50,404 nucleotides of DNA from Kiloniella laminariae DSM 19542 (lineage in GTDB: Bacteria > Pseudomonadota > Alphaproteobacteria > Kiloniellales > Kiloniellaceae). A program made the position numbers and the translations under genes. Below, in pieces: positions 39,158 to 39,252 of the stretch. Location: contig NZ_KB893134.1 in assembly GCF_000374005.1 (NCBI RefSeq), forward strand, positions 734,853-785,256. The letters are read 5' to 3'. How positions within the stretch are numbered: the first letter of the stretch is position 1; every line of letters begins with the position of its first letter. A model generated the notes under the pieces. The model made no database searches, was not told the DNA's origin, and was given only the letters and a program-made list of their open reading frames with translations.

Positions 39158-39252
39158 GACTCCCCTTGACTCGAGTCCCCTATCCTGAGTCACGATGGAG
39201 TCGCGGTCAAGTATTTTTTACAGGAAGAGTCAAGTAAAGAGTCATAAGAGTC
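39158..39252. promoter_or_regulatory. Cluster of eight GANTC sites upstream of ccrM
   Basis: GANTC occurs at 39158, 39168, 39173, 39187, 39198, 39227, 39239 and 39248 (start bases). A random sequence would have about 0.4 in 95 bp. The cluster fills the rnhB-ccrM gap; the last site overlaps the rnhB stop. Two direct repeats GTCAAGTA (39206-39213, 39229-39236) lie inside it. It probably makes ccrM transcription sensitive to methylation state. Confidence 0.85.

Follow-up and report, generated by a model that had tools for sequence, protein, structure and literature searches.

Methylation-sensitive promoters are already known, and so are the two GANTC sites at ccrM in Caulobacter. The ccrM promoter of Caulobacter crescentus is driven by CtrA, and a link between its expression and the methylation of these sites has been proposed (PMC10073500, PMC3973325). 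Other Caulobacter promoters, dependent on GcrA (ctrA P1, podJ P2 and mipZ), carry a GANTC between the -35 and -10 elements, at -28/-29 in ctrA P1 and at -24 in podJ P2, a location that goes with a set activation time (PMC4287350). At the IS10 transposase promoter (Dam) and at MamA targets of Mycobacterium tuberculosis the m6A sites overlap the -10 element; for IS10 a direct effect of m6A on the polymerase was shown in vitro (inhibition, with a hemimethylated intermediate) and for MamA such an effect has been proposed (PMC3701705). Synthetic CcrM memory circuits place the CcrM gene under methylation-sensitive control by means of an engineered zinc-finger reader (PMC5458116). In Ruegeria, thus outside Caulobacter and the rhizobia, ccrM is described as not controlled by CtrA (PMC3692519). 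A comparative study from 2010 counted GANTC over the 500-bp promoters of cell-cycle genes, a measure from which, according to its authors, control by methylation was not derivable (PMC2877005).

The ccrM gene considered here lies in a window of 50,404 nucleotides (the whole stretch of DNA that was analysed) from Kiloniella laminariae, and whereas the C. crescentus promoter has two GANTC, the array in front of this gene has nine, among them sites fused to putative -35 and -10 elements. We consider it likely that the array is a sigma-70 promoter of ccrM with CcrM sites in its core, that promoter activity follows methylation and that ccrM in this way regulates itself. Because two of the sites are built into the promoter and the arrangement recurs before ccrM in many relatives, it is probable that CcrM monitors its own output and controls it through the marks that it leaves. 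Like the GcrA-dependent promoters, the locus has GANTC near the -35 and -10 elements (at about -27, in the spacer, and at about -16 of the putative promoter); it differs from them in the second site fused to the -10 and in a two-site geometry that is all but confined to ccrM and occurs also in genomes in which GcrA is undetectable. As at IS10 and the MamA targets, the -10 is overlapped by a methyltransferase site in a fixed place; here this site lies at the upstream edge of the -10 and on the methyltransferase's own gene, so that a feedback loop would close. In comparison with the synthetic circuits such a loop would be natural, and a natural counterpart to them is thus on offer. A position-locked ccrM promoter that lacks a CtrA box and is indifferent to GcrA was not found in the open-access literature searched.

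Both genes of the locus are on the minus strand and the gap between them spans 39151-39250 (100 bp; Table 1). The first-pass annotation had placed eight GANTC at 39158-39252, the last overlapping the rnhB stop, and every coordinate proved exact (the stop codon TGA occupies 39253-39251). The direct repeats to which it referred are two copies of GTCAAGTA at 39206-39213 and 39229-39236, each of them containing TTGAC on the minus strand; they correspond to TACTTGAC at the -35 and to another copy lying 23 bp further upstream. That annotation had not recognized the promoter core, in which most of the signal conserved outside the genus resides. A standard sigma-70 consensus scan of 37900-40000 called no promoter either, because CAGGAT is a poor -10. 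Transcription would start at about 39175-39177, giving a predicted leader of about 25 bases, with the likely ribosome-binding site AAGGGGAG ahead of the GTG codon. Three sites (39158, 39168 and 39173) lie at or after this predicted ccrM start, and one of these three sites below the -10 may merely overlap the ribosome-binding site.

Table 1. Genes, GANTC sites and putative promoter elements at the ccrM locus (positions in the window; offsets relative to the predicted transcription start)
Feature	Position	Strand	Remark
ccrM, solitary DNA adenine methyltransferase	38080..39150	-	GTG start at 39150-39148; Pfam N6_N4_Mtase (5.1e-68) and RAMA
GANTC, predicted leader, overlapping likely ribosome-binding site AAGGGGAG	39158..39162	-	
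GANTC, predicted leader	39168..39172	-	
GANTC at predicted transcription start, joined to next site as GACTCGAGTC	39173..39177	-	Invariant in 9/9 genus genomes
-10 element CAGGAT (elsewhere CANNNT), 17-bp spacer	39182..39187	-	
GANTC whose last base is first base of -10 (~-16)	39187..39191	-	Offset +19 from TTGAC, 124/186 regions
GANTC in -35/-10 spacer (~-27)	39198..39202	-	Offset +8 from TTGAC, 94 cases in 186 regions
-35 element TTGACC of putative ccrM promoter	39205..39210	-	TTGAC at fixed offset from GANTC in 124/186 non-redundant regions
Upstream GANTC, inside TTGACTC (~-56)	39227..39231	-	
Upstream GANTC (~-68)	39239..39243	-	
Upstream GANTC (~-77), overlapping rnhB stop	39248..39252	-	
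rnhB (RNase_HII), upstream gene	39251..39898	-	Same strand as ccrM
Ninth GANTC (~-95), inside end of rnhB	39266..39270	-	Outside the list of the first-pass annotation

Density was examined in a genome sample of 450,404 bases (about 10% of the genome), made up of the window and 20 further stretches, which held 1049 GANTC (2.33 per kb). The claim that the cluster is some 20 times denser than chance was borne out, eight sites in 95 bp being about 36 times the sampled rate. In the proposed check by 100-bp stretches the ccrM array came out as the densest with 8 GANTC; apart from it no stretch in the 450 kb held more than 4, a count reached by three stretches. The window as a whole is GANTC-poor (136 vs 228.7 in shuffles).

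At the level of the order, CcrM was matched at E<=0.001 in 56 of 58 genomes, the source genome included. Each of the nine sites keeps its distance from the ccrM start codon in all nine genus genomes examined, and the first-pass proposal to look for the array in close relatives was answered by its presence in 8/8 other genus genomes searched. Its positions are constant while RNase HII identity drops to 67%, and among the columns of the gap those within GANTC are invariant in 38 of 38 cases, as compared with 43/62 for the others (p 4e-5). The GTG start is likewise present in 9/9 genomes. Strong constraint on the array is supported by these comparisons.

Outside the genus the signal comes from where the sites are and not from how many there are. 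On the minus strand the core reads TTGACC-GC-[GACTC]-CATCGT-[GACTCAGGAT], with a GANTC inside the spacer and another that overlaps the -10. We dropped rows from genomes already represented (L063 and L071, which duplicate the genomes of L039 and L042, and L103, which duplicates that of L045) and rows with regions shorter than 200 bases (L110 and L151), and removal of 26 near-identical regions reduced 212 regions to a non-redundant set of 186. In this set GANTC occurs 19 bp after TTGAC in 124 cases and 8 bp after it in 94, TTGAC-N14-GANTC being present in 124/186 regions vs a shuffle mean of 0.135 and none on the reverse strand. Other frequent places are 15 bp before TTGAC (58), within TTGACTC (49) and 5 bp before (32), and offsets of 27 to 45 bp give counts of 0 to 6. 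The spacer site is accompanied by the -10 site in 81/94 regions and the -10 site by a spacer site at the exact offset in 81/124, where any other pentamer takes the spacer position in at most 3 of 124. Counted in another way, with a 150-base length cut and L103 kept, two GANTC 11 bp apart were present in 87/153 ccrM upstream regions from order, class and titled genomes, mostly in the frame TTGAC-N3-GANTC-N6-GANTC-A. In regions chosen solely on TTGAC-N14-GANTC the base after GANTC is A in 164/164 and the base four beyond that A is T in 163/164; that is, the last C of the methylation site is the first base of a -10 CANNNT in 163/164 strict-motif regions. The sole region without the -10 T at the expected place lies upstream of ccrM in Citreicella sp. 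(L118). We infer that the promoter is the one used by ccrM and that methylation would alter its activity. As to the sites around the core, at least one further GANTC was found within 60 bp above the -35 in 155/168 motif regions, and GANTC below the -10 in 10 of the 82 regions whose leaders are of sufficient length, among which the source genus with its short leader does not figure. Nine sites within 120 bp are the maximum seen, a number reached in the genus and in a single further region (L283).

The geometry was seldom met away from ccrM. The relaxed motif TTGAC-N13..15-GANTCANNNT is present in 168 of the 250 ccrM upstream regions fetched, and absent from 82, with no occurrence in any of 20 shuffles; in the 1,446,109 bases of 80 titled ccrM loci all of its 56 occurrences fall in ccrM upstream regions, and its single occurrence in the 450 kb sampled from the source genome is at ccrM. 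Searching 278 class genomes with the strict two-site 24-mer yielded 46 matches in 45 genomes (backward-read control, 2), of which 37 have the orientation of ccrM and precede the CcrM match by 30-165 bp; the single match of the source genome is at ccrM. Among the nine matches away from ccrM, two precede ftsK (L248 and L250) and one a ribonucleotide reductase gene (L249), as assigned by Pfam, another (L253) precedes a frame without Pfam match and five were inspected for open frames only. These counts support a core geometry nearly specific to ccrM. The ftsK-linked matches come from two genomes of family f18, and the one before the ribonucleotide reductase gene from one of those two. A general class of spacer-GANTC promoters in the source genome was also considered and rejected, as TTGACNNNGANTC gave 17 matches vs 14 in the backward control, no genome-wide excess.

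By sample, the relaxed motif was found in 45/50 regions of the order (50 of the 56 genomes with a CcrM match) and in 54/77 of the titled regions; in the class sample 69/123 genomes have CcrM sites in a fixed position relative to the -35 and -10 of ccrM, a proportion that is not an unbiased frequency because these 123 of 211 were drawn mostly from the CcrMs most similar to that of the source. Arranged by NCBI order, the titled regions carry it in 37/41 Rhodobacterales, 7/9 Rhodospirillales, 1/8 Hyphomicrobiales, 0/3 Caulobacterales, 0/1 Maricaulales, 0/1 Hyphomonadales, 1/1 Kordiimonadales and 7/12 without order, as well as in the one record placed in Bdellovibrionales. On a FastTree tree of 151 CcrM proteins the distribution needs 19 changes of motif state, a number that comes with no shuffle baseline and from which no ancestry is claimed.

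The parallel with Caulobacter drawn in the first-pass annotation stood as regards the GANTC sites and a proposed methylation link, and not as regards the driver, which is CtrA there: TTAA, sought by eye in 39140-39290, does not occur in that interval, and a CtrA box TTAA-N7-TTAA within it at the source ccrM is rejected. In the non-redundant regions, CtrA boxes with at most one mismatch are above chance only where the strict motif is missing (19/62 vs 5.6 in shuffles), their number alongside the motif being 10/124 vs 7.8. This distribution agrees with the control of Sinorhizobium ccrM by CtrA (PMC4433202) and with the description of Ruegeria KLH11 ccrM as outside CtrA control (PMC3692519); three other Ruegeria ccrM loci carry the motif. 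Upstream of ccrM in Caulobacter vibrioides (L152) there is a CtrA-like box TTAACGGCCCGCTAA at -94 with one mismatch, and no TTGAC-N14-GANTC. An 11-bp pair without TTGAC, GAGTC-N6-GACTC, lies in that region at -132/-121, about 25 bp upstream of the CtrA-like box, and is possibly a remnant of the TTGAC/two-GANTC type of promoter.

How such a promoter could work may be pictured as follows. The putative sigma-70 promoter, with TTGACC, a 17-bp spacer and CAGGAT, has a GANTC inside its spacer and a second GANTC joined to its -10, and around this core the genus has seven more. Passage of the fork would leave every site hemimethylated and the promoter more active; as CcrM accumulates, it would re-methylate its own promoter and silence it. 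The marks may be read directly by RNA polymerase, GcrA, which the genus encodes, being a possible modulator, and more sites might, speculatively, lengthen or sharpen the interval before full re-methylation. The sign of this regulation is the part that we trust least. We lean slightly towards a negative one, with the promoter active when hemimethylated or unmethylated and off when fully methylated, on the analogy of IS10 and because Caulobacter ccrM expression rises when its two sites are hemimethylated (PMC10073500). Against this sign, Caulobacter ftsZ reaches its highest activity under full methylation (PMC8116508), and GcrA, the established reader of GANTC in its methylated form, binds such sites and brings polymerase to methylated promoters (PMC3667746). 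A positive sign with GcrA is its main rival. The first-pass proposal of a sensor of methylation state gained in part, in that the array is constrained, its core geometry is almost exclusive to ccrM and CcrM sites hold fixed positions in the putative promoter, as would be needed for a sensor. We put forward tentatively, as possible but short of even chances, the further reading that the sigma-70 polymerase itself reads the marks at about -27 and -16. The motif would then be a widespread alphaproteobacterial promoter type, nearly exclusive to ccrM and with nine sites in the genus, forming a reader-free loop that sets CcrM dosage after each fork with or without GcrA and that takes the place of CtrA outside Caulobacterales and Hyphomicrobiales. 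Self-sensing by a cell-cycle methyltransferase becomes testable in one promoter with two point mutations.

Among the alternatives, the one that survives best is that GcrA binds the methylated sites and activates ccrM, CcrM thus promoting its own synthesis and the sites being kept for GcrA, which we regard as possible but rather unlikely. GcrA is encoded in the source genome (G000:C18:4151-4801, E 4.8e-28, Pfam model) and was found in 19/21 genomes scanned, source included, and the spacer site resembles the GANTC near -28 of ctrA P1 and similar GcrA-linked promoters of Caulobacter (PMC4287350). However, the extended GcrA motif YGAKTCG (PMC7987155) fits, by eye, one of the nine array sites (39266) and neither core site. 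Moreover, the strict motif shows no association with GcrA (45/89 genomes with a match at E<=0.001, 19/31 without; p 0.40; G335, G337 and G341, unscored for GcrA, were left out and G025 and G032 counted under the order), and it is therefore unlikely that the sites exist on account of GcrA alone. Nine of the 19 motif-bearing negatives were searched again, with the HMM (E<=10) as well as a GcrA protein as queries, and gave only sub-threshold hits (best E 0.017), the three controls all matching; absence in the other ten is that of the single scan at E<=0.001. One absence (G233) is possibly an assembly gap, since a relative of the same genus (G308) has GcrA. Detectable GcrA is not required for the motif.

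The opposite idea, that the motif is tied to the absence of GcrA, was examined and abandoned. In the first 82 scored genomes all 14 GcrA-negative ones had the motif and all 34 motif-negative ones had GcrA (p 2e-4), an association due to sampling by CcrM similarity. The prediction that 16 further GcrA-negative genomes would carry the motif failed, with 5/17 after one genome was added; two of the five carriers were known beforehand, leaving 3/15 fresh. Among the GcrA-positive genomes of this follow-up 11/21 had the strict motif, six of them known beforehand. With regard to GcrA itself, we observed that its Pfam model also scores above cut-off in the Sulfolobus acidocaldarius control genome. Upstream of gcrA in the source genome (L245) an adjoining GACTCGACTC lies at -112/-107 and a GATTC at -30, and gcrA too may for this reason be methylation-responsive.

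It is improbable, in our judgement, that a dedicated transcription factor or CcrM itself recognizes GANTC-like repeats, the methylation motif being incidental. The composition of the sites lends this idea something, as all nine at ccrM are GACTC or GAGTC, a bias that the first-pass annotation did not mention and that is opposite to the sampled genome, where 758/1049 sites have A or T in the centre. The centre of the -10 site, too, is C in 96 regions, A in 27, T in 1 and G in 0 (C or A in 123/124), which indicates constraint beyond GANTC at that place, but this bias is explicable by the promoter, to which we attribute it. The spacer site speaks for methylation, its centre being A in 38, G in 24, C in 12 and T in 7 while its defined G, A, T and C are fixed, which is the degeneracy of CcrM's own motif.

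It is very improbable that the cluster retains CcrM in its vicinity or postpones its own re-methylation and has no action on the polymerase. Nine sites in 113 bp would have to be re-methylated one by one, and CcrM detaches after each site (PMC10073500); however, the core conserved elsewhere in the class consists of few sites tied to promoter elements and not of density. The bulk titration that had been offered as a role for the array is rejected, since the array makes up about 0.09% of an expected genomic total of roughly 10,300 sites (2.33 per kb over 4.44 Mb). Chance or mutational bias, for which one could invoke the over-representation of GANTC in alphaproteobacterial intergenic regions (PMC3973325), is practically negligible and was ruled out by the 36-fold local density, by invariance in 9 genomes, by fixed offsets that recur across the class and by the comparison with shuffles.

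Other accumulations of GANTC were noticed. Four sites in 78 bp at 47145-47222 make up one of three 100-bp stretches that rank next in density in the genome sample; they lie between an open reading frame ending at 47135 and one starting at 47307 that encodes a repetitive, possibly TPR, protein. Seven sites within 300 bp at 32523-32820 lie inside a long open reading frame (31735-35196, minus strand) that is SMC-like in appearance. In another genome (L259, G240) seven GATTC recur exactly every 15 bp immediately before the ccrM match, and they may form a coding repeat of an N-terminal extension, not regulatory DNA.
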